Positions 50,663 to 63,643 of a stretch of 64,000 nucleotides of DNA are shown here, in pieces. A model generated the notes under the pieces. The model saw nothing but the letters and a program-made list of their open reading frames with translations, did not search any database and was not told the DNA's origin. The stretch is from Phycisphaerae bacterium. GTDB taxonomy: Bacteria; Planctomycetota; Phycisphaerae; UBA1845; PWPN01. Where the stretch lies: NCBI GenBank assembly GCA_018003015.1, contig JAGNEZ010000025.1, positions 1-64,000 of the forward strand, given 5' to 3'. Within the stretch, counting starts at the first letter, position 1; every line of letters begins with the position of its first letter. The translations under genes were made by a program, and so were the position numbers.

Positions 50663-53600
50663 TTACTGCGGCATGTCGAGGCAGCCTGCGTCCGCCGCGA
50701 TCGCCGGACCAGCGTAACAGTTCTGGAAGGCGGCCAAATCCTCCGCGGCCACATAACCGTCACCGTTGGTGTCCGCACAAGCACACACCGAACCGGTCAG
50801 CGGTGCGACCGTGCCCGTGAAGCAGGCCTGGAAGAGCCCGAAATCGACCTGGTCGACGTCACCGTCCGTGTCCAGGTCCAGTCGCGGGGCGGCACAGGCG
50901 GAGAGCCCGCCGGTCATGGCCGCATACTCCGCAGCCACCCACTCGGCCGAGCGGGCAACGCCGGAAAACCGGATTTCGTCAACCAGACCGCTGTACCACC
51001 CGTTGGTATCGGCACCGATGGCGTCGATGACGCCGGTTCCGATCTTGGCGGTGTCGCCTGAGGAGCCCTGGTTGGTGATGTTCTCCAGGGCGACCTGACC
51101 CGCTTCGACGCCGTCCAGGTAGATCACCAGGCTCGTGGCGTTGCCGGTCATGACCACGTAATGCCATTCGCCGGTGTTGTAGGCGTAGGGGACGTTGATG
51201 CCCGGCCAGGTCCCGCCGGCACTGACCCACGCCTGCAGGTTGGCCCCGCCGTGGAAACCGAACTCGATCAGGTCATTCTGGCCGAACAGCGGCATCCGAT
51301 CGCCGAAGGCCGCTGCCTCGGGAGCGATCCAGCCGCTGACCGTGAACTCCGCCAGGTTGCTCAAGAAACTGGCGTTGAGGTCAACGTAGGCATCGGTTCC
51401 GTTGAACCCGCGCCCCAGGCCCAGCCGGCCCGTGGCGCTGGTCGAGTTGTAGATGGTCCCGTCGTGGTCATTGGCCGTCGAGTCAATCACCGTGGCCTCA
51501 TCGGCAAAGTGGTAGACGGCCAGGTAGCCGGCGGTCCACACGCCTTCCGCATCCTGCCCGGCGGGCACGCCTGGATTGTTCCAGTGCATCCAGACGGTGG
51601 TGGCCTGATCAAGCTGCGGAACCTTGACCCAGATGAGCGAGGTGCCGGCCGCATCCCACCGCTCGATTTCGTACGGCAGGAGGGCCGTCTGGTCCTTGTT
51701 GGTGAAGCGGATGTCCGAGCCGTCGGCCGCAAAGCCGGCGTAGTTGTCGACCTTGTCCGGCGTGAGCGTCACCAGAACCGGGAACTCCGCCAGCGGCGTG
51801 GCTCCCATGTATCCGCTGAACGAAACCCGCATGCTGTTCTTCCAGTCGGCGATCGAGTCGATATCCTGGATCGTCACCGTCGCCGAAGCCTCGCCGGCGA
51901 CATCGTAAATGGCCCGCTCCTGGAGAGTCAGGATCACGGTCTCCTCGCCCTCGAGCGGCAGCCAGTCCTGAATGGCGCTGACCGTCAGATTGATCTGGGT
52001 CTCGCCGCCGGCGAAGGTGACCGGGATGGGCAGGGCGGTATAGTCCTTGCCGGGCGTGGCCGTTCCCTCCACCGTCAGGTAGACGGTGAGCGGCCGGCTG
52101 GTATTGCCGCCCGAGCGGGTGAGGGTGAAGGTGCCGGTGTCACCCAGCTCGGTCGCGGCGGCGTCGGCGGCAACAAGCTGCACCTGAGCGACGACCCCGC
52201 CGAAGGCGATCAGGTTGTCGACCATGGACGCGGCCTGGTTAGCGACCCAACTCTCCGACTTGGCCACGGAAAGAACCTGAACCTCATCGATGGTGCCGCT
52301 GAAGTACTGGGCGGCGGCAGCGTGGCGGGCGAACTTGAGGGTGTTGGTTTCCACCTCCGGGATGCCCAGGGCCTCGGTGTTCTGGGTGATCAGAACGCCG
52401 TCGCGGAATCCCTTCAGCGAACCTCCTGCTTCAGCGGCACCGTCGTAGGTCCCCGCCAAGCAGTACCAGGTATTTGCCTCGAGCGGGTTCATCGTGGCAC
52501 CCCGCCAGCCACCGGCTGTCGAGTTGACCGCGATAGCGCCATTGAACTCCGGTGTGCCGTGGCCCCAGTTGATCTGGTAGTTGCTCTCGCGATGGACCGG
52601 GCCGGTGGCGGTGGCGCCCTCGGAAGCGGCGGCGGTTCCACGCACGTAGGTCATCACCGTGAAGTAGGTGATGTTCTCGGTGTTGCCGGTGTCAACGTAG
52701 TTTGAACTGGCGGCATCGAAGCTCAGCGCCCCGCCGATCGCGCCTTCGACCGGGCTGGCCCCGTAGTTGGTGCCATCGTTGCCGTGGCCGGTGGAGTCGT
52801 AGTAGAGCCCTTCGGCGGTGGTGGTATTCAGGTGCCAGACACCCAGGTAATCGGGCGTCCAAACCGCCTCCCCACCCTGAGCCAAGACGGAGTTCGTGTT
52901 GCCCCAGACCAGGGTGATGGCATCGGTGGGCGCGGCGATCTGCGGGACCTTCACCCAGACGTAGGACGATCCCGCCGGATCCCACTTCTCCACCTCGTAG
53001 GGCAGGCTGAGGTCGCCACTTCTGAAGCGGAGGTCCGAACCATCGGCATTGAAGCCGGCGTAGTTGTTGACGCGCTCGGGGGTCAGCACGACCAGAACCG
53101 GGAACTCGGTCAGGATCTCGGTGCCGGTGTACCCGGCGAAGACCAGGTCCAGGGACTTGGTCCAGTGGCTCCAGGATCCGTTGTCTGCGATCGTGGCCGT
53201 GGCCGAATCGGGTGCCCCGGCCACATACTGCGGATCGTTGGACGTGATCGTGACCATGACCGTCTCGTCCCCCTCGGTTGTTCCGTCCTCGTAAGGCGTG
53301 ACGGGTACGGCCACGCTGGCCTGACCGGCCGGAATGACGACCTTGCCGCCCAGATACGCATAATCGGCTCCGCCGGTCGCGGTTCCCGACACGGTGTAGT
53401 TCAAGGTCAGCGGGAAGAGCGTGCTGCCCGTGCGGGTGAAGGTGAACGTACCGGTATTGCCGGCCACTTCGGCAGCGGCGGAGTCGGTTGCCTCGACGGT
53501 GATGGTTGCGGTGACATCCTCGCTGATCAGGTTGATTTGTGCATTCGATGGTTCCCCGAGCTCGTAGGTGGGTGCCGTGGTCAGTGCGACCGTGACCGTC

Positions 53601-54667
53601 TCATCGACCTCGACCTCGCCGTCATCGATTGGCGTCACGGTGATGGTTGCGGTCGATTCGTTGACAGGGATGGTCACCATGCCGGACAGCGTCGCAAAAT
53701 CAGTGCCGGCCGTGGCGGTGCCATCGAAGTTGTAGTACACGTCAAGGGCTTTGGAGGTGTCGCCGCCGGCTCGGGTCACGGTGAAGGTGCCTTCCGTCGC
53801 CGGTTCGGCGGCACTGGTGCCGGCCGCGATCGTTACTGTGGAGGGTGGGTAGGTCGCGATGATCTGGACGGCATTGATCTGGGAGCGGAAGGTCTGCTCC
53901 TCGCTCCGAATGATGATCTGGTCGGCGGTCAGGCCGGTGAACACGATGTAGTTGCCGATGCCGGCGGTTTCCAGGGTGTTGGCCGTGATCGGTACCTGAG
54001 TGAACACCGGTGCCGCGGCGGTGAAATTCACCGAGTCCTGGAGGAAGACATGGGGAGTCAGAACGGAGCCCAGACTGTCCGGCGGCATGGCCGTGCTGGT
54101 GGTCTCCTGAACCCAGTATTCACTTCTTCGGCCTTCGGTGGCGTCGCCGTCGCTGTAGATGACCACGCTATAGCCGGTGGCACCCGGCTGGGCGGCCAAC
54201 CACGCGGCGAGGCCCTTGACGAAGACCTGCGGGACGTTGGCGGTCGTTATGTTGCCAGTCCAGAACTGGTAAGGCGTGGTCACATCGTCGTTTGGCTTGC
54301 CGGGGGCGTCGATGTAGCCGTGCATGAGCTTGCAGTTGGGGGTCGACGTGCCGGCTCCGTCGTTCCAGATATTGGGGGAGTCCCAGGCGCAGACGATGGT
54401 CACGCCGGTGAACGTCACCTTGTTGCTGAACTTGCTGAGGGTGATGTTGCTGCCCCATCGCCCGAGGTTGTTCCAGTTGTCCTGGGCGTATCCGGGAGCT
54501 CCGGCAACTTCGTCTACTCCCAGCGAGTCGCCGCTGGTTTCCTGGATGCCGCTGCCGCTGTTGGCGACGAAGTTGATGCCGATGGACTGGGCGGGGGCAA
54601 GGCCCGCGGAAACCCCGATCAGAATAAGTCCTAACGCGACGGTCAAGCGAAAACCGAGCTGGGACAT
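50663..54667 (-). CDS. giant exported Calx-beta / DUF2341 / LamG / dockerin protein
   Basis: About 1334 residues after a signal (FRLTVALGLILIGVSAG). An N-terminal region of about 270 residues is followed by Calx-beta 1 and 2 (TVTRAGGDTSKALDVYYNF, FTFTRTGSTLFPLTLNYTV), a DUF2341 domain (YTGTEILTEFPVLVVL) and a LamG jelly roll. Calx-beta 3, a second DUF2341 (YMGATPLAEFPVLVTL) and a second LamG follow, and a dockerin-like pair (DLDTDGDVDQVDF, DTNGDGYVAAEDL) ends the protein. The half containing Calx-DUF2341-LamG is duplicated. Probable adhesin or surface-glycan binder. Two well-placed starts exist: 54667 (GAGGAGGG) and 54763 (AAAGGAG); 54667 gives the cleaner signal peptide. Confidence 0.85.
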   Translation of the reverse strand: MSQLGFRLTVALGLILIGVSAGLAPAQSIGINFVANSGSGIQETSGDSLGVDEVAGAPGYAQDNWNNLGRWGSNITLSKFSNKVTFTGVTIVCAWDSPNIWNDGAGTSTPNCKLMHGYIDAPGKPNDDVTTPYQFWTGNITTANVPQVFVKGLAAWLAAQPGATGYSVVIYSDGDATEGRRSEYWVQETTSTAMPPDSLGSVLTPHVFLQDSVNFTAAAPVFTQVPITANTLETAGIGNYIVFTGLTADQIIIRSEEQTFRSQINAVQIIATYPPSTVTIAAGTSAAEPATEGTFTVTRAGGDTSKALDVYYNFDGTATAGTDFATLSGMVTIPVNESTATITVTPIDDGEVEVDETVTVALTTAPTYELGEPSNAQINLISEDVTATITVEATDSAAAEVAGNTGTFTFTRTGSTLFPLTLNYTVSGTATGGADYAYLGGKVVIPAGQASVAVPVTPYEDGTTEGDETVMVTITSNDPQYVAGAPDSATATIADNGSWSHWTKSLDLVFAGYTGTEILTEFPVLVVLTPERVNNYAGFNADGSDLRFRSGDLSLPYEVEKWDPAGSSYVWVKVPQIAAPTDAITLVWGNTNSVLAQGGEAVWTPDYLGVWHLNTTTAEGLYYDSTGHGNDGTNYGASPVEGAIGGALSFDAASSNYVDTGNTENITYFTVMTYVRGTAAASEGATATGPVHRESNYQINWGHGTPEFNGAIAVNSTAGGWRGATMNPLEANTWYCLAGTYDGAAEAGGSLKGFRDGVLITQNTEALGIPEVETNTLKFARHAAAAQYFSGTIDEVQVLSVAKSESWVANQAASMVDNLIAFGGVVAQVQLVAADAAATELGDTGTFTLTRSGGNTSRPLTVYLTVEGTATPGKDYTALPIPVTFAGGETQINLTVSAIQDWLPLEGEETVILTLQERAIYDVAGEASATVTIQDIDSIADWKNSMRVSFSGYMGATPLAEFPVLVTLTPDKVDNYAGFAADGSDIRFTNKDQTALLPYEIERWDAAGTSLIWVKVPQLDQATTVWMHWNNPGVPAGQDAEGVWTAGYLAVYHFADEATVIDSTANDHDGTIYNSTSATGRLGLGRGFNGTDAYVDLNASFLSNLAEFTVSGWIAPEAAAFGDRMPLFGQNDLIEFGFHGGANLQAWVSAGGTWPGINVPYAYNTGEWHYVVMTGNATSLVIYLDGVEAGQVALENITNQGSSGDTAKIGTGVIDAIGADTNGWYSGLVDEIRFSGVARSAEWVAAEYAAMTGGLSACAAPRLDLDTDGDVDQVDFGLFQACFTGTVAPLTGSVCACADTNGDGYVAAEDLAAFQNCYAGPAIAADAGCLDMPQ

Positions 54668-54779
54668 GGACTGGGCCCTCCTCAATGGCCGAACGGACAA
54701 CCGGGCGACAATCCCGCGATTCCAATAGCGCGAGCGCCCGCGACAGAGGCAGGAATCCAACATGGAAATTGCTCCTTTC

Positions 54780-54797
54780 CCACGACAATTGTCGTGG
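54780..54797. promoter_or_regulatory. perfect 18-bp palindrome
   Basis: CCACGACAATTGTCGTGG is a perfect inverted repeat with no spacer. It ends two bases from the AAAGGAG ribosome site that serves the 54763 ATG of the minus-strand giant protein gene. Its symmetry and position fit a dimeric repressor operator, or an RNA hairpin that would mask the ribosome site. Confidence 0.5.
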
Positions 54798-54890
54798 AGC
54801 CACACCAGACAACCGACATGAAGACTGATCCGCAGACGTGCATGCGGGCCGGGTCAGACACCTTCGACAGACCCCCCGATGCTACAACGC

Positions 54891-55105: not shown

Positions 55106-58100
55106 GTGGTGAGCACCCCAACGTCTATATGCAGCCGGTCTGTCGGCTGTTTCCTGGCCATGCTGGCTGTGTTCCCTCTTGCGCCAGCCTCGCTCCAGGC
55201 CCTCGTCCTCACGGAACTCATGTTCCATCCCCTGGGGGACAATCCGGATGAGGGCGTCCACGGCGAAGAGTACATCGAGTTGTGGAACGAGACGTCGGGC
55301 TCGATCGATCTGAGCGGTTATCGGTTCACCCGCGGGATCAGCGGGGCCAACGGGGAAACGGACTACACGATTCCCAACGGCACCGTCTTGCCGGCGGGAC
55401 AGTACTTGGTGGTGGCTCGAGAGCCGGCAGCCATGGCCGCCCGGGGGGTCTCCGGGATCATCGGACCCTACGGGGGTAATCTCAGAAACTCGGGTGAGCG
55501 GCTGACGCTAGTGGATGCGGCGGGAGAAACGGTTGTAGACGTCGCTTACAGCGATCGCGGCGACTGGCCGGCGGCGGGTGATGGGACGGGTCACTCCATC
55601 GTACTCAAAGACATCACCGAGGATCCAGACATGGGTCGACACTGGCGTCTGAGCCAGTTGAAGGGCGGCTCGCCCGGTGCGGCCGACGTCGTCAAGCCTC
55701 AGACCCTTTACCTGGTCTACGCTCCCGAGCTGAAAAGCCACGGCTGCGCGACCGACTGCTCGCGGCAGCGGTACTTCAAGGGCACCGTCGAACCGCCGGC
55801 AACCTGGAAGGATGTCACCTTCGATGACTCGAGCTGGTTGATCGGCTGCGGCGGATGGGGGTACGGCGACGAGGACGATTGTACCCTGCTCAGCGACATG
55901 TACAACTACTACCTCTCCGTGTATGCCCGGGTCGGTTTCGACCTGACCGCCGATCAGATCGCCAACATGAAATCCCTGACGTTGGAGGTCCGCTACGATG
56001 ACGGCTTCGTCGCTTATCTCAACGGTCATGGCGATCCGGTCGATCGGGCCAACGTGAACGGCACGCCGCCGGCGTTCAACCAGCGGGCGTCCTCCAGCAT
56101 CGAACCGACCACGCAGACGAAGGACCTGACGTCCAAGATCGGTCTGCTTCAGGCCGGGCCCAACGTGCTGGCGCTCCAGGGACACAACTACCCGAGAAAC
56201 AGCAGCGACCTGTCGTTGATCCCCCGGCTGACCGCAGTCATCGAGCCGCCGTCCAGCTCGAACGATCCCGCCCGCCAGCTCCTGATCAACGAGATCTTCG
56301 CCGACGGCTTCGGAACCGAGTGGTTCGAGCTCTACAATCCGACCGATCAGGCGGTAGCCCTGGACGGGGTGTGGCTGAGCAACAGCGAGGACAACCTGGC
56401 GATGCAAGCCCTGCCCTCCGGAACCACAGTGCCAGCCAGGGGTTTCCTCCAGCTTCAGCAGGGCGTGGATTACAGCACCTTCAGTATTCGGACCAGCACG
56501 ACCAGCGGCCAGATCTTCCTCACCGCCCCGTCGCAGGCCTACGTGCTGACCGGCTACTGTTTCGGTACCCAGCGCACCGGATGGAGCATCGGCCGCTATC
56601 CGGACGGCGGCGACGACTGGTCCCCGATGGATACCCCGTCGCCGGAGACGTTCAACACCCGCCATCGGCTCCGCCAGGTGGTCATCAGCGAGCTCATGTA
56701 CCATCCCCTGCTGGGCGACGATGCCGGTTACGTCGAACTGTACAACACCGGCACGACCATGGTGAACATCTCCGGTTGGGAGTTCGACGGCATCGGCTAC
56801 CGGTTCGGCGACAACAAGACGCTCCCGCCCGGCGGCTACGCGGTGGTCTGCGACAACCGGACGGTAGCCTCGGCGGCCTACGGGCTGGTCTACAGCACGC
56901 TATACGGCAACTACCACGGGAACCTGGCCCGCGGTGGCGAGAAGGTCGTCCTGCTGGACGAGAACGACCTGGTCGTGGACTGCGTGACCTACACCGACGA
57001 GCCGCCCTGGCCGGTGACCCCGGACGGCACCGGAGCCTCGCTCGAACGCCGCTGCGTCAGTGACAGCTTCGAGCAGCCCTCGGACTGGGTCGGCTCGGTG
57101 GTCGGCGCTCCCACGCCGGGCGGTCCCAACCGGATGTCGGACTGCACGGTTCCGCCCACGCCGGCGGTGGTCATCAATGAGATCATGCAGCATCCCTTCG
57201 CCGATCTGCACGATGACGCGAAAACCGAGTTCATCGAAATCTACAACAACTCCGGCGCCGCGGTGAATCTGACGAACTGGCGCTTGGGCGGTGACATCCA
57301 GTTCGCCTTCCCGGACGACTATTCGATCCCCGCCGGCGGCTACCTGGTCCTCTCGTCGGACGATGCCGCCGGTCGTGCCGGCGAGGGCGGACTGTACCGG
57401 GTCTACACCCACCTTTCCGACGCCAACACGCTTGGCCCGTATGCGCCCGAACTGCCCAACGGCAACGGCGACGTGTGGCTGATCGGTGAAGACGGCCGGG
57501 TCGTCGACGCCGTCACCTACTCCGACGATTTCCCCTGGCCCAGCCTGCCGGACGGCTATGGCACGGTCGAGGGTCGAGGCTATTCGCTCGAGCGGCGATG
57601 CATGACGGCGCCCTCGGCTTCGCTGGCCAACTGGGAGGCGTCGCCCGCCGACGGGGCCACGCCCGGGGTGGCCAACAGCAAGTCCACCTGCACCCTGCCT
57701 CCGACGGTGGCCGCCCTGAGCGTCACCCCCTCGCCGGTCATGGCCACCAGCACCACGACCATCACCGCCACGATCGAGCCTTACACCGCGGTGGCCGGAG
57801 CCCAGGTCCGATACTTCGTGGATGACATCGAGAAGACCGGCGAGACCGTCTCCACGGCAATCATGTCCAACGGGGGCAACGGCATCTGGACGGCCACGCT
57901 GCCGGCCCAGGTCGCCAACAGCGTGGTGCGGTACCAGATCTGGCTGAACACCGGGGCCGGTTATGCCCGGGTCTCGCCCCGACCGGCCGGCGACGCCTAC
58001 GAATGGAACGCCTACTTCGTCGATCCGCAGATGTCCTCGCCAGAGCCGCAGTTCCACCTGTTCATCTCCAAGGCCAACTGGCAGCTCCTGTACACCAACT

Positions 58101-60433
58101 GCTCGCCCGGCCGGGTGATCGGCTCAGCCCTGAATCCGAACTGGGACGCCCAGGTTCCCGCCACGTTCGTCGCCGACGGCGTGGTCTATGATGTCTCCGT
58201 TCGATTCCAGGGCAGCCGCTGGAACCGCCTCGGCGGCGGCACGATCAACTTCTCGTGCCCGTCCTACTCGACCACCGGCCAGGTCCAGGTCCTCAGCTGG
58301 CGCATCAAGTTCCCCTCCTACCGGAAGTACAACAAGCTGGACACGATCGCCCTGCAGAAACAGGCGGGCTGGCCGCAGCGGGTCAGCTTCAAGATGTTCG
58401 AGCTGGCCGGCGTGCCCGCCCCGATCACCGACTGGGCCAGCCTGCACATCAACGGCTGCCTCTACAACGAGTACGCCTATCTCATCGAGCGACCGGCGGC
58501 CGACCTGATCCAGCGCTGGTTCGGCACAGTGGGCGACCTGTTCAAGTCCCAGGGATTCACCGGCGACGAGGGCCCGTTCAGCTGGGGCGACGAGCGGCTT
58601 ATCACCGGCTCGCTCAACGGCTACACCGAGGAGCAGCGATATGAATACACCTACGACCGCACCACCCTGACCTGGAAGGGTCGCCCCGGCGACGGCAAGT
58701 CGGATATGGTCGAGGGGCTGATCGAGGGCCTGAACGCCGCCCGGGCCCAGGGCACGGCGGCCCTGCGCGAGTTCCTGACCCAGACCTTCGACGTGGACCT
58801 GACCCTGCGTTACATCGCCACCATCAACTACGTCGGCACCTTCGACGACATGTTCCAGAACCACTTCCTGTACCGCAAGGCCGACGACGGCAAGTGGTGC
58901 ATGCTCCCGTGGGACATGGACAATACCTTGGGCGGCGCTTACGGCGAATACAACGCCCACTGGCTACGCGGGGCCAATCGCAGCGACGTCGGCAACCGCA
59001 GTGGCTGGTGGAACTACATCAAGGACTCGTTCTTCCTGGCCTACGAGGCCGAGTTCACCACCATGATGCTGTACCTCAATAACGAGGTCTACCCACCGCA
59101 GGTGATGAACTCGATCGTCGAGGCCCTGGCCGCCGAACGCGGCGTCGATCCGTCGGGCATCAAGAACCATATCCAGGCCCGCTACGACTGGCTCAATGCC
59201 AACGTGGTCATCCCGATCTGCAAGGGCGATCCGGCCGTGGTCGATGGGACGCTCTCCGAGTTCACCGTCGAAGGCCCCGATGTGGCTATCGTCAACCGCA
59301 CCACCCAGTACGAGGCCCACGCCGTCAAGCAAGGCGCCACCGTGGCCGTCGATGTGGGCGCCTGCACCGCGTGGTCCACCAGCCGGCCGGACATCGCAAC
59401 GATCAGCGACGGCCAGGTGATGGTCCGGACCGCCGATCCGCCGCCCACCCTCGACCTCGTCGCCACCGTGACCGACGCCACCGGGCCCCGGACCGCGATC
59501 AAGACCGTGACCCTGGCCATCGTTCCCACGACGAGCATCGATCTCGGCTTGATCGCCGGCGGCGGCGACGGCATCTCCTCCGATCTCCACCCCTACGCCG
59601 GCATCAACATGATCGACGGACAGTTCGAGCCGACCCACTACAACGGAGGAGTGGGCGACGGTAGCACCTTGCCCCAGCCGGTCCCCACCCCGCCGGGCTC
59701 GAACTTCGACCTGATCGATTCGGTGTTCATCCTGCACAGCGACGTGGCCATCAATCAGGCAGGCGTCCTGTGGGGCACGAACAACTGGACCAATCCGACC
59801 AACCCCTTCAACGGGGGTTCGTGGGACTTCATCCTCAACAACGCCGAGCCGGGCGAGGCCCGTCCACTCCGCCTCCTCGAGAGCGGTTCAACGGTCGAGT
59901 ATACCTCCGGCCTGGGCATTCACGCATCGGCGGGGATCACCTTCGATCTTGCCGCGATCGCCACCTATGCCAACGTCGCAGTGCAACGCTTCGTGGGCAA
60001 ATGCGGCGTGCACGCCAACGCCGGCGGCTCGGTGGAAGGTTTCGTCATCTTCTCGGATGACACCTCCGTTCTTGCCGCCTATCGCAGCGGCATCCAGTAT
60101 CAGAACAGCGACGCGTACGCCTTCGACGTCGCGGTTCCGGCGAAAGCCAGGTACCTCACCCTGGCAATCGGCTCGGGCAGTGACGGCATCGGCCTCGACC
60201 ACGGCGTGTTCGCCAACGCCTTCCTGATCACCCAGCCGTACGTACTCAATCCCTTCGACTTCGACGGCGACCGGGATGTCGACCAGGATGACTTCAACAC
60301 CTTCGCGGCCTGCCTCTCGGGACCCTCCGTTCCGCGAGCCGCCGGATGCGAGGACTGCGACGGGGACGGGGACGGCGACGTCGATCAGAACGACTTCGGC
60401 GTGTTCCAGCGCAACATCACCGGTTCGCCCTGA
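55106..60433 (+). CDS. giant exported LTD-CotH-type kinase protein with dockerin
   Basis: A 1775-residue protein with signal peptide (VGCFLAMLAVFPLAPASLQA). Lamin-tail (LTD) domains lie at about 30-145, 395-520, 525-655 and 685-860, marked by VLTELMFHPLG, LLINEIFADG, VISELMYHPL and VVINEIMQHPF. The CotH domain (about 1005-1400) has AGWPQRVSFKMFELAGVPAP, YEYTYDRTTLT and the active-site type PWDMDN (Asp1270, Asp1272). Ig-like and NPCBM-like domains follow (about 1410-1705), then a dockerin-like pair (DFDGDRDVDQDDF, DCDGDGDGDVDQNDF). CotH proteins are secretory-pathway-type protein kinases; activity here is inferred. GGAGGAGG precedes GTG 55106. The next gene starts 39 bases later. Confidence 0.88.
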   Translation: MVSTPTSICSRSVGCFLAMLAVFPLAPASLQALVLTELMFHPLGDNPDEGVHGEEYIELWNETSGSIDLSGYRFTRGISGANGETDYTIPNGTVLPAGQYLVVAREPAAMAARGVSGIIGPYGGNLRNSGERLTLVDAAGETVVDVAYSDRGDWPAAGDGTGHSIVLKDITEDPDMGRHWRLSQLKGGSPGAADVVKPQTLYLVYAPELKSHGCATDCSRQRYFKGTVEPPATWKDVTFDDSSWLIGCGGWGYGDEDDCTLLSDMYNYYLSVYARVGFDLTADQIANMKSLTLEVRYDDGFVAYLNGHGDPVDRANVNGTPPAFNQRASSSIEPTTQTKDLTSKIGLLQAGPNVLALQGHNYPRNSSDLSLIPRLTAVIEPPSSSNDPARQLLINEIFADGFGTEWFELYNPTDQAVALDGVWLSNSEDNLAMQALPSGTTVPARGFLQLQQGVDYSTFSIRTSTTSGQIFLTAPSQAYVLTGYCFGTQRTGWSIGRYPDGGDDWSPMDTPSPETFNTRHRLRQVVISELMYHPLLGDDAGYVELYNTGTTMVNISGWEFDGIGYRFGDNKTLPPGGYAVVCDNRTVASAAYGLVYSTLYGNYHGNLARGGEKVVLLDENDLVVDCVTYTDEPPWPVTPDGTGASLERRCVSDSFEQPSDWVGSVVGAPTPGGPNRMSDCTVPPTPAVVINEIMQHPFADLHDDAKTEFIEIYNNSGAAVNLTNWRLGGDIQFAFPDDYSIPAGGYLVLSSDDAAGRAGEGGLYRVYTHLSDANTLGPYAPELPNGNGDVWLIGEDGRVVDAVTYSDDFPWPSLPDGYGTVEGRGYSLERRCMTAPSASLANWEASPADGATPGVANSKSTCTLPPTVAALSVTPSPVMATSTTTITATIEPYTAVAGAQVRYFVDDIEKTGETVSTAIMSNGGNGIWTATLPAQVANSVVRYQIWLNTGAGYARVSPRPAGDAYEWNAYFVDPQMSSPEPQFHLFISKANWQLLYTNCSPGRVIGSALNPNWDAQVPATFVADGVVYDVSVRFQGSRWNRLGGGTINFSCPSYSTTGQVQVLSWRIKFPSYRKYNKLDTIALQKQAGWPQRVSFKMFELAGVPAPITDWASLHINGCLYNEYAYLIERPAADLIQRWFGTVGDLFKSQGFTGDEGPFSWGDERLITGSLNGYTEEQRYEYTYDRTTLTWKGRPGDGKSDMVEGLIEGLNAARAQGTAALREFLTQTFDVDLTLRYIATINYVGTFDDMFQNHFLYRKADDGKWCMLPWDMDNTLGGAYGEYNAHWLRGANRSDVGNRSGWWNYIKDSFFLAYEAEFTTMMLYLNNEVYPPQVMNSIVEALAAERGVDPSGIKNHIQARYDWLNANVVIPICKGDPAVVDGTLSEFTVEGPDVAIVNRTTQYEAHAVKQGATVAVDVGACTAWSTSRPDIATISDGQVMVRTADPPPTLDLVATVTDATGPRTAIKTVTLAIVPTTSIDLGLIAGGGDGISSDLHPYAGINMIDGQFEPTHYNGGVGDGSTLPQPVPTPPGSNFDLIDSVFILHSDVAINQAGVLWGTNNWTNPTNPFNGGSWDFILNNAEPGEARPLRLLESGSTVEYTSGLGIHASAGITFDLAAIATYANVAVQRFVGKCGVHANAGGSVEGFVIFSDDTSVLAAYRSGIQYQNSDAYAFDVAVPAKARYLTLAIGSGSDGIGLDHGVFANAFLITQPYVLNPFDFDGDRDVDQDDFNTFAACLSGPSVPRAAGCEDCDGDGDGDVDQNDFGVFQRNITGSP

Positions 60434-60472
60434 CCGGAAGGACCAGGGGGATAGCCCGAAGGAGAATCAGCC

Positions 60473-63400
60473 ATGTCGCGGTGTTCGGAACGCCTGCACC
60501 GTGCGGAATGGATGGTGGCCCTGGTTCTGATTCCGGCGATGCTGCCCGCGGTCCGGGCGGCGGCGGAGACGGTTCTGCCCTCTACGTACTGGCGCAACAC
60601 CGCGACCTTCCCGAGCGACGCCTTCCGGGCCCCGGCCTCGCAATCCGGCGACCCCGGCTGGATCAAGTTCCTTGTCTTCACCAGCGACCCGACCAAGGTC
60701 TACTTCCAGGACAGCAGGCAGTACCGCTTCCACTACGACTTCGCCACCGCCCTGGTCTCCGAATACATCGGCATGAGCACCGAGCAGTTTGACCAGATCA
60801 CCCTCTACGCCCAGGGCCAGAAGGCAATCCTCGGTTCTGTGATTCTCCCCTATTGGACATCGTATCAACCGGCGGCCGAGCAGATCCAGGAATACGGCAT
60901 CCAGCTCGTCCGGCAGAATGCCTACGATCCCGCCCAGGTCGTGACTCTCTTCAACCTGGTCAAATCCAAGGTGGTCGCCGCGGCCGGTGTCCAGGCCTAC
61001 TACTTCCCCAGCTACGAGCAGATCGCTTCCGCCGAGGTGCACCGCCAGTACCTCGCGGATCACGGCGTGCAGGTCAGCTCAACGAGCCGCTGGGCCAAGG
61101 GCAACGTCGCCTACGCCCGCGGCTGGGCCCTGGGAACCCTGAAGAGGTTCCCTGCGGCCGATATCGGCCACGCCTATCGCTCCGGCCAGCTGGCCCCGAA
61201 CGACATCCTCCTGACCGACGGCATACCCGCGGAGGTGCCGATCCTGGCCGGGATTGCCACCCTGGCACCCGCCACACCCAGCTCGCACGTCGCCATCCTG
61301 GCCAACACCTACGGCATCCCCTTCGTGTACCTGGCACTGCCGGATGACGCCGACCGGGCGGAACAGCTTGTCGGCCGCCAGATCGTCTTGCGGGCTTATG
61401 GGAACACCAACGACTGCGACGCCCGGCTGATCGACGTGCAGGACATCCTCACCCCCCAGCAGATCGAGGAGATTCTGGCCCTCAAGGTGCCCGCACCCCT
61501 GAAGATCAGCCCGGTGACGCCCTTCGGCGCCTACAGCGCTCCGGCCGACGGGCTCTGGCCGGCCGACATCCGTTACTTCGGGGGCAAGGCCGCCAACTTC
61601 GGACTGCTCCGGCGCTCCATCCCCGCCAACAGCCCGGTCGCGACCGCCCTGTCCTTCGACCTCTGGAACGAGTTCCTGGACCAGACGCTGACCAACGGCC
61701 GGACGCTCCAGGCGGAAATCGACCGGCGCCTCGCGGGAGTAACCTATCCTCCGGCGGATATGTCCGCCCTGTCGGCCACGCTGGAGAGCATTCGCGAGGA
61801 CCTGTTCAAGAGCAGATCGGCCACCAGCTTCAGCCCGGCCGCGCAAAACGAGATCATCGCCATCCTGCAGGATCCCCAGTATCACTTCCAGCCGAACCGC
61901 AACATCCGCTTCCGCAGCTCCACCAACATCGAGGACAGCGCGCAATTCACCGGCGCGGGCCTGTACGACAGCTTCAGCGGCTGCCTCGCGGACGATCTCG
62001 ACGACGACGAACTCGGACCGAGCCGATGCGACGCGTCCGAGCCCAACGAGCGCGGCGTGTTCCGAGCGATCCGCAAAGTCTTCGCCAGCTTCTACAACGA
62101 CAATGCCTTCCTGGCACGGCTGCGCTACGGCCTGGACGAGAACCAGGTGGGCATGGCCTTGCTGGTGCATCACTCGACACCCGACGAATTCGAGCTGGCC
62201 AACGGCGTGGCGACGCTGGTGCGAAACGGTTCAAGCCAGAGCCAGATCACCCTGGTAACACAGAAAGGCGCGGTGTCGGTGACTAATCCTGGCGACGGCT
62301 CGATCCCCGAGGAAGTCCACGTCCAGGTCTATTCCTTCGGCAGCTATCTCACCCTCGTGGGGTACTCGAACCTCGTGCCGCTCGGGGCAACAGTGCTCAG
62401 CTGGGAGACGGAGTATCGCAACCTGAGCGGCCTGCTGCTGGCGGCCGGCAACGCGTTCGCCGCCGCCTCCGGCAAGAGTCGCTTCACTCTCGACTTCGAG
62501 TACAAGAAGGTGCTGCCCGACGAAACGCTGTGGGTCAAGCAGGTTCGCGAGCTTCCGCAGGCCAGCACGACGGCCAGCATCACGCCATTCCTGATCGGCG
62601 AGCCCGCGCCATTCACCCTGTTCCAGGGCGAGTATGCCGACGTCTTCGCCAACCACCGGCTCAAGTCGAAATGGACCGTGACCACCCGGAGCATGTGGCT
62701 GACCGAGGCTCATCTCGCCGCCGGACTTTACGCCAACGTGGCGATGGAGTATGTCGACAGCGAAGGCAACGTCCGGACCATCACCGGTCTGCCGTCAGAT
62801 TGGCCCGAGGCATCTCATGACTACCCGGATAGTGCCGTGGTCGACAGTTGGTCCCTGGCCGACATGGGCAACCCGCGCCGATATACCCTGCGGGTCGGCG
62901 ACGCAGGCAATCTGGTCGCGCCGTCGCAATGCCCCCTGCTGACCATCCGGGATCTCGGCCTGCAGTCCGGTTTCGGAGCCGGCGTGCTGGAACTCCAGGC
63001 GGACCACGACCGGCCGGTGCCCAGCTGGACCTGGTCCGGAGCCGGCACCACGAGCACCGACCACGGCCGCCTGATCCCCCCCTTCGAGCCTCAACCAGGC
63101 GACGAGCTGATCACCCGGAAGCTGATCGGCCCCAAAGGCGTTTCCGCAACCACTCAGTACTACTGGCCAGTCCCGCCGGGAGGAATCGCCGCCGGCTATA
63201 CCGCTCCGCTCGCCCGCTTCGTCGAGACCCAGATCGCCGGCTACACCACCACCCCAATCGTGCTCCACGGGTTCTACGCCCAGACCTACAAGCCGGAACA
63301 CCACAACTTCGGCGAGCATTTCATCTTCGAGCCCGGGCTCGAACCGGATTTGTCGCCTGCCATCCTGCAGGAACTCCGTGACCGCAACATCCGGCTGATC

Positions 63401-63643
63401 CATGTGGACTCCAGCCTCGGAGGCACGGCGACCTTCACCACCTATGGCTTCATCCCTCCAGGGGATTTTGACCAGGACGGCGATGTGGACGGCACGGATC
63501 TGGCCATCTTCAGAGACTGCGTCACCGGCCCGGCGCTCGGCCCGGCCATCTCCGGATGCCGCTCAGCGGATTTCGATGACGACCACGACGTGGATCAGGA
63601 TGACTTCGGCGCCTTCCAGCGAACCTCCACCGGCTCGAAGTGA
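60473..63643 (+). CDS. exported PEP synthase-like protein (phosphohistidine domain then ATP-grasp) with dockerin
   Basis: A 1056-residue protein with a signal peptide (MVALVLIPAMLPAVRAAAE). Residues about 235-310 are a PEP-utiliser mobile domain with the phosphorylatable His272 in APATPSSHVAILANTYGIPFV. Residues about 365-700 are a PPDK_N/ATP-grasp domain: GGKAANFG (Lys372), FRSSTNIEDSAQFTG (Arg481, Glu487) and the KQVREL end (Gln690, Arg692). The PEP/pyruvate TIM barrel is absent, and the His domain precedes ATP-grasp, the opposite of PEP synthase. A 300-residue unassigned region and a dockerin-like pair (DFDQDGDVDGTDL, DFDDDHDVDQDDF) follow. Function inferred: phosphotransfer to an unknown acceptor. 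AAGGAG precedes the ATG. Confidence 0.85.
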   Translation: MSRCSERLHRAEWMVALVLIPAMLPAVRAAAETVLPSTYWRNTATFPSDAFRAPASQSGDPGWIKFLVFTSDPTKVYFQDSRQYRFHYDFATALVSEYIGMSTEQFDQITLYAQGQKAILGSVILPYWTSYQPAAEQIQEYGIQLVRQNAYDPAQVVTLFNLVKSKVVAAAGVQAYYFPSYEQIASAEVHRQYLADHGVQVSSTSRWAKGNVAYARGWALGTLKRFPAADIGHAYRSGQLAPNDILLTDGIPAEVPILAGIATLAPATPSSHVAILANTYGIPFVYLALPDDADRAEQLVGRQIVLRAYGNTNDCDARLIDVQDILTPQQIEEILALKVPAPLKISPVTPFGAYSAPADGLWPADIRYFGGKAANFGLLRRSIPANSPVATALSFDLWNEFLDQTLTNGRTLQAEIDRRLAGVTYPPADMSALSATLESIREDLFKSRSATSFSPAAQNEIIAILQDPQYHFQPNRNIRFRSSTNIEDSAQFTGAGLYDSFSGCLADDLDDDELGPSRCDASEPNERGVFRAIRKVFASFYNDNAFLARLRYGLDENQVGMALLVHHSTPDEFELANGVATLVRNGSSQSQITLVTQKGAVSVTNPGDGSIPEEVHVQVYSFGSYLTLVGYSNLVPLGATVLSWETEYRNLSGLLLAAGNAFAAASGKSRFTLDFEYKKVLPDETLWVKQVRELPQASTTASITPFLIGEPAPFTLFQGEYADVFANHRLKSKWTVTTRSMWLTEAHLAAGLYANVAMEYVDSEGNVRTITGLPSDWPEASHDYPDSAVVDSWSLADMGNPRRYTLRVGDAGNLVAPSQCPLLTIRDLGLQSGFGAGVLELQADHDRPVPSWTWSGAGTTSTDHGRLIPPFEPQPGDELITRKLIGPKGVSATTQYYWPVPPGGIAAGYTAPLARFVETQIAGYTTTPIVLHGFYAQTYKPEHHNFGEHFIFEPGLEPDLSPAILQELRDRNIRLIHVDSSLGGTATFTTYGFIPPGDFDQDGDVDGTDLAIFRDCVTGPALGPAISGCRSADFDDDHDVDQDDFGAFQRTSTGSK

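Follow-up and report, generated by a model that had tools for sequence, protein, structure and literature searches.

To our knowledge, dikinases combining an ATP-grasp with a phosphohistidine domain are known from the cytosol and organelles. Two groups of these enzymes provide the closest descriptions for the locus studied here: alpha-glucan water dikinases (GWD), and rifampin phosphotransferase (RPH) with PEP synthase/PPDK. In RPH the reaction is carried by Lys22, Arg117 and a catalytic His (PMC4844700). CotH proteins form a further described group, that of secreted kinases, which occur in the Bacillus spore coat and, as LTD-CotH proteins, in the cellulosome of Clostridium thermocellum. The substitution D228Q abolishes the activity of B. 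subtilis CotH (PMC7821199), and the cellulosomal LTD-LTD-Fn3-CotH protein Cthe_0239 was listed earlier (PMC6083626).

The window, i.e., the whole stretch of 64,000 nucleotides analyzed in this work (contig C25 of a genome of 6.86 Mb in 144 contigs), contains a gene for an LTD-CotH protein followed on the same strand by a gene for a phosphohistidine/ATP-grasp protein (Table 1). A sequence-only reading had described this tandem, the export of both products and the integrity of their key motifs, and on these points it was borne out by the ORF listing and translations: both frames are real, both proteins look exported by their signal-peptide-like N-termini (called by a hydrophobicity rule instead of a trained predictor), and both phosphotransfer modules retain their key residues. 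The CotH gene starts with GTG, preceded by GGAGGAGGG, and the dikinase-type gene with ATG, just downstream of its ribosome site; no terminator-like site was found in the 39 bases between the two genes. Purifying selection acts on both of them, as judged from two species (dN/dS of ~0.16 for the CotH gene and ~0.23 for the dikinase gene).

Table 1. Features of the CotH-dikinase tandem, in positions of the window.
Feature	Position	Strand	Basis and remarks
Exported LTD(x4)-CotH-NPCBM protein with dockerin-like C-terminus, 1775 aa	55106..60433	+	ORF/translation; Pfam; 93% identical same-genus orthologue
Signal-peptide-like N-terminus of the CotH protein, SVGCFLAMLAVFPLAPASLQA	55106..55201	+	Read from translation
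LTD domain, best-scoring of four	57152..57523	+	Pfam
CotH kinase domain, aligned with Bacillus CotH 5jd9 at its TFDDMFQNHFLY and PWDMDNTLGG motifs	58295..59137	+	Pfam; alignment
NPCBM domain	59843..60226	+	Pfam
Dockerin-like C-terminal repeat of the CotH protein	60224..60427	+	49% identical (tblastn) to the second protein's tail
Intergenic stretch, 39 bases	60434..60472	+	AGGAGA-type ribosome site
Exported phosphohistidine/ATP-grasp (dikinase-type) protein, 1056 aa	60473..63643	+	ORF; Pfam; structure model
Signal-peptide-like N-terminus of the second protein, MVALVLIPAMLPAVRAAAET	60473..60565	+	Translation; like N-termini in nearly all complete relatives
N-terminal domain, residues ~35-204, family-conserved, without assigned family	60575..61084	+	Alignments; model
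Phosphohistidine swivel domain, residues 205-323	61085..61441	+	VIA Z 10.3 to RPH His domain 5fbu
Catalytic His272 codon	61286-61288	+	Invariant in 50- and 22-member alignments
ATP-grasp domain, residues 351-697 (K372, R479, R481, D674, E676, Q690)	61523..62563	+	VIA Z 28 to RPH 5hv1 and PEP synthase 2ols; conservation
C-terminal all-beta domain, residues 697-993	62561..63451	+	Without Pfam match; weak likeness to double-calycin proteins (AttH/CrtC)
Dockerin-like C-terminal repeat of the second protein	63452..63640	+	Pfam Dockerin_1 E 0.013, below cut-off

In Pfam, the second protein matched PPDK_N (3e-14) and, weakly, PEP-utilizers (0.024). The AlphaFold2 model built from a 50-member family alignment reached a mean pLDDT of 87. 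In this model, VIA-align superposed residues 351-696 on the ATP-grasp domains of RPH and PEP synthase (Z ~28), and the swivel domain that bears the phosphohistidine in RPH was matched by residues 205-323. The counterparts of RPH Lys22, Arg117 and the catalytic His are K372, the pair R479/R481 and H272. Thus, the predicted fold and the Lys, Arg, acidic and Gln ligands together identify an ATP-grasp domain, and the preceding domain carries the phosphorylatable His of a swivel domain, present as H272 in all 50 members.

The order of these domains, His domain N-terminal to ATP-grasp, is the opposite of that in PEP synthase, PPDK and RPH, a point on which the sequence-only reading was silent. Although the ATP-grasp and swivel folds and the conserved Lys, Arg and His residues are common to all of them, the second protein differs from RPH and PEP synthase/PPDK by its reversed order, by lacking a RIF-binding domain or a PEP/pyruvate barrel, and by its apparent export. 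An identity as PEP synthase/PPDK was discarded on these grounds, the His-then-grasp order replacing grasp-His-barrel and the C-domain being all-beta in the model instead of a TIM barrel; the NCBIfam scores of PEP synthase/PPDK type were also far under their cut-offs. The genome encodes three further PPDK_N proteins, which we take to be of the usual cytosolic PEPS/PPDK types.

The nearest kin appeared to be GWD. A profile of the His and grasp domains of the family, built without any GWD, scored 72-116 bits against GWD-type planctomycete proteins, with a single colinear match for several of them, as compared to 31 and 17 bits against the two PEPS/PPDK-type proteins matched in the own genome. The motif RSS(S/T)NxED...GAGLYDS is common to the family and to the GWD type. 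Both the domain order and the grasp motif (GAGLYDS) of the second protein correspond to a GWD-like architecture and not to that of PEP synthase. In contrast with GWD, it looks exported, lacks the long (cytosolic) N-terminal GWD part, and has an N-domain of its own and a predicted all-beta C-domain, to which a dockerin-like tail is often added in the family. The Pfam model GWD1_pHisD matched weakly in only 2 of 22 relatives (PEP-utilizers in 6 of 22) and gave no reported match in the window protein; thus, "GWD-like" denotes here architecture and nearest kinship, not membership.

Family members were gathered from Planctomycetota, plus one from Verrucomicrobiota; a search of plasmids returned ppsA once and nothing else. 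The 50 aligned members share 21-93% identity with the window protein and only 28 invariant columns, among which are H272, K372, R479, R481 and E676, with Q690 present in 49 of the 50. A second alignment of 22 members, including other distant ones, displayed the same conservation of catalytic residues. Where the N-terminus is complete, almost every member has, by the hydrophobicity rule, a signal-like segment directly ahead of the conserved core or of an added module, and several carry modules of extracellular type (FG-GAP, P-proprotein, EF-hand, LamG, beta-helix, LTD and dockerin-like tails). All these factors taken together indicated that export signals and catalytic residues have been jointly retained across a very wide divergence. 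We know of no characterized enzyme of PPDK, PEPS or RPH type that acts outside the cytosol or organelles, which would speak for a cytoplasmic protein whose N-terminal hydrophobic stretch is a non-working signal; with signal-like N-termini throughout the family and extracellular modules in its members, this appears most unlikely. ATP is scarce outside the cytoplasm and many extracellular kinase-like domains have lost their activity, and the protein might accordingly have ceased to transfer phosphate and, once exported, only bind or sense nucleotides or its ligand. Invariance of the catalytic His, Lys and Arg in very distant members would, however, be unexpected after a loss of activity, and we consider such a role improbable.

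The second gene is therefore a member of a family of GWD-like, exported-looking dikinases with intact catalytic residues. No description of an exported member, nor of a pairing of CotH with a dikinase, was found in the literature under open licence. We consider it somewhat probable that the product is an exported dikinase-type phosphotransferase of GWD-like build, belonging to this conserved family and moving phosphate from ATP through His272 to an extracytoplasmic acceptor. By analogy with the superfamily (RPH, PMC4844700) and with the residues retained, ATP or another nucleotide would be taken in the periplasm or at the cell surface, His272 would be phosphorylated at the ATP-grasp site with release of AMP and phosphate, and the His domain would then swivel and deliver its phosphate to an acceptor bound at either the N- or the C-domain. 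An exported-looking family in which every catalytic residue is kept across such divergence implies two-step phosphotransfer outside the cytoplasm, and prompts one to ask which donor supplies the phosphate there. In E. coli, ATP has been measured at a steady-state level in the periplasm, and vesicles likewise contain ATP (PMC7432876); the Km of RPH for ATP is 8.4 uM (PMC4844700). By analogy with these data, ATP as an extracytoplasmic donor in planctomycetes would not be absurd.

As for the acceptor, a glycan is our leading guess, favored by the kinship with GWD and by the gene context of one subclade. In this subclade (seven loci in two genera: L138, L139, L141, L142, L150, L154, and L155) the family gene lies beside genes of GH39-like, heparinase II/III-like, radical-SAM/SPASM and xylose-isomerase-like proteins, with a sulfatase in one locus; another family member adjoins a GH31 gene. 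The GH39/heparinase-type context suggests that the family gene is tied to glycan degradation in this subclade; this is not by itself transferable to the window, where this neighborhood is absent. A tentative proposal, which we regard as possible but rather doubtful, is that glycans are phosphorylated outside the cytoplasm of Planctomycetes and some Verrucomicrobia by active, exported GWD-like dikinases, via phosphohistidine and with periplasmic or released ATP; if true, it would constitute an extracellular chemistry not described so far.

A weak hint in another direction came from the C-domain, whose model resembles binders of small hydrophobic molecules. Modelled alone (residues 697-993), it was all-beta with a pLDDT of 93.5. 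Its second half was closest in VIA to AttH (2ich, Z 7.4), CghA (7.2) and the 25-phosphosteroid lyase 9fzn (Z 5.8), and its first half to fatty-acid-binding proteins (Z ~5), values that in both cases lie within the range given by unrelated models. As Foldseek returned nothing at E<=0.001 and VIA no Z above 7.4, the fold was left unassigned; this absence of matches does not amount to proof of a new fold. Taken at face value, these likenesses would fit an exported dikinase acting on a small hydrophobic alcohol, which the double-calycin-like C-domain would bind and from which it may eliminate the phosphate, resulting in an ATP-driven dehydration within one protein. Apart from the modest Z values, the C-domains of distant family members seem divergent, and the 25-hydroxysteroid kinase that acts before the lyase is ADP-forming and has little similarity to known phosphotransferases (PMC8449060). 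We therefore deem an alcohol acceptor decidedly improbable.

About 20 members of the family (L143, L144, L146-L153, L157-L162, L165, L166, L170, and L173) carry an in-frame LTD-like insert of ~155 aa at one site of the ATP-grasp domain, corresponding to ~61691-61706 in the window. The insert is circularly permuted, with the C-half before the N-half, and its distribution on the tree is patchy (4-5 changes), the sisters L150 and L135 being with and without it, respectively. It was also considered as a mobile element spread across unrelated proteins, and this was dismissed as full-length permuted copies were confined to this gene family in the eight genomes searched.

Four LTD domains, a CotH domain (E 1e-16; 61.5 bits vs. 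a curated cut-off of 23.8) and an NPCBM domain were found by Pfam in the first protein. Its TFDDMF and PWDMD motifs align with NFDGF and PWDYD of 5jd9, the catalytic/metal-binding Asp motifs, and the aligned Asp is probably the counterpart of B. subtilis D228. The CotH domain and its Asp motifs are thus common to the described secreted kinases, from which the window protein differs by its four LTDs plus NPCBM. It is best explained as a separate exported protein kinase, with an activity predicted from sequence. The CotH gene is one of nine in the genome and stands far from the other eight. Between the two species, the region of the CotH domain has changed more slowly than the whole gene (dN 0.010 vs. 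0.035).

The sequence-only reading had also proposed that the two proteins may form one extracytoplasmic phosphotransfer system. It had named a lack of conserved adjacency in relatives as refuting this, and such a lack was indeed observed. The tandem recurred in a genome of the same genus (G633, same contig as L043), with both proteins 93% identical, and was missing from all other lineages; the genome of the next closest orthologue (G651/L044, 67%) gave no CotH hit, nor did five others in which a family gene is present. Among ~75 family loci read, a CotH gene adjoined the family gene in three unrelated lineages. Besides that of the window, these were L135, where the two genes abut on the same strand, and L061, where they converge; both emerged from ~55 further loci, and their CotH belongs to a different subfamily, not orthologous to the window CotH. 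The three cases compare with ~0.45 expected over 58 loci (P ~0.01, from a rough count and rough assumptions), and none of 20 further family loci had a CotH gene next door. Given this weak excess over chance, exported genes of this sort may be slightly prone to end up side by side. Homologues of 1800 aa were inspected as possible CotH-dikinase fusions and ruled out, their additional part consisting of FG-GAP repeats.

Dockerin-like tails, which the earlier reading had seen at both C-termini, are indeed present, and lose their value as evidence of pairing since they occur at ~130 places in the genome, which that reading had not noted; as a link between the CotH and dikinase genes they were rejected. 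An assignment as type I dockerins was not retained either, Dockerin_1 reaching 16.2 bits in the second protein (cut-off 22.9) and giving no match in the first. With a strict motif, clustering with other dockerin-bearing genes was not seen.

With adjacency not conserved and the tail genome-wide, the pairing was rejected as a conserved two-gene system. The same strand, the short spacing free of a terminator-like site, the retention of the tandem in a second species, the independent arrangements in L135 and L061, and the LTD-like insert, a module typical of CotH proteins, in ~20 family members would agree with a functional unit. Against them stand the confinement of this tandem to one genus, the genomes without a CotH hit, including that of the closest orthologue, the non-orthologous CotH neighbors and the 20 loci without one, and we hold a joint system to be very unlikely. 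The tandem is best explained as a lineage-specific arrangement in which the CotH partner is dispensable, and interest shifts to the second gene.

The only cohesin-bearing frame found in the genome, of 2099 aa (C63:25176-26636), combines a pair of cohesin domains with a dockerin-like match and compares with the ~130 dockerin-like tails; a cohesin-dockerin contact may therefore take place. On the minus strand of the window, the divergent neighbor of the tandem (50663-54805) encodes a large exported-looking protein with Calx-beta, LamG and DUF2341 domains and a dockerin-like tail.
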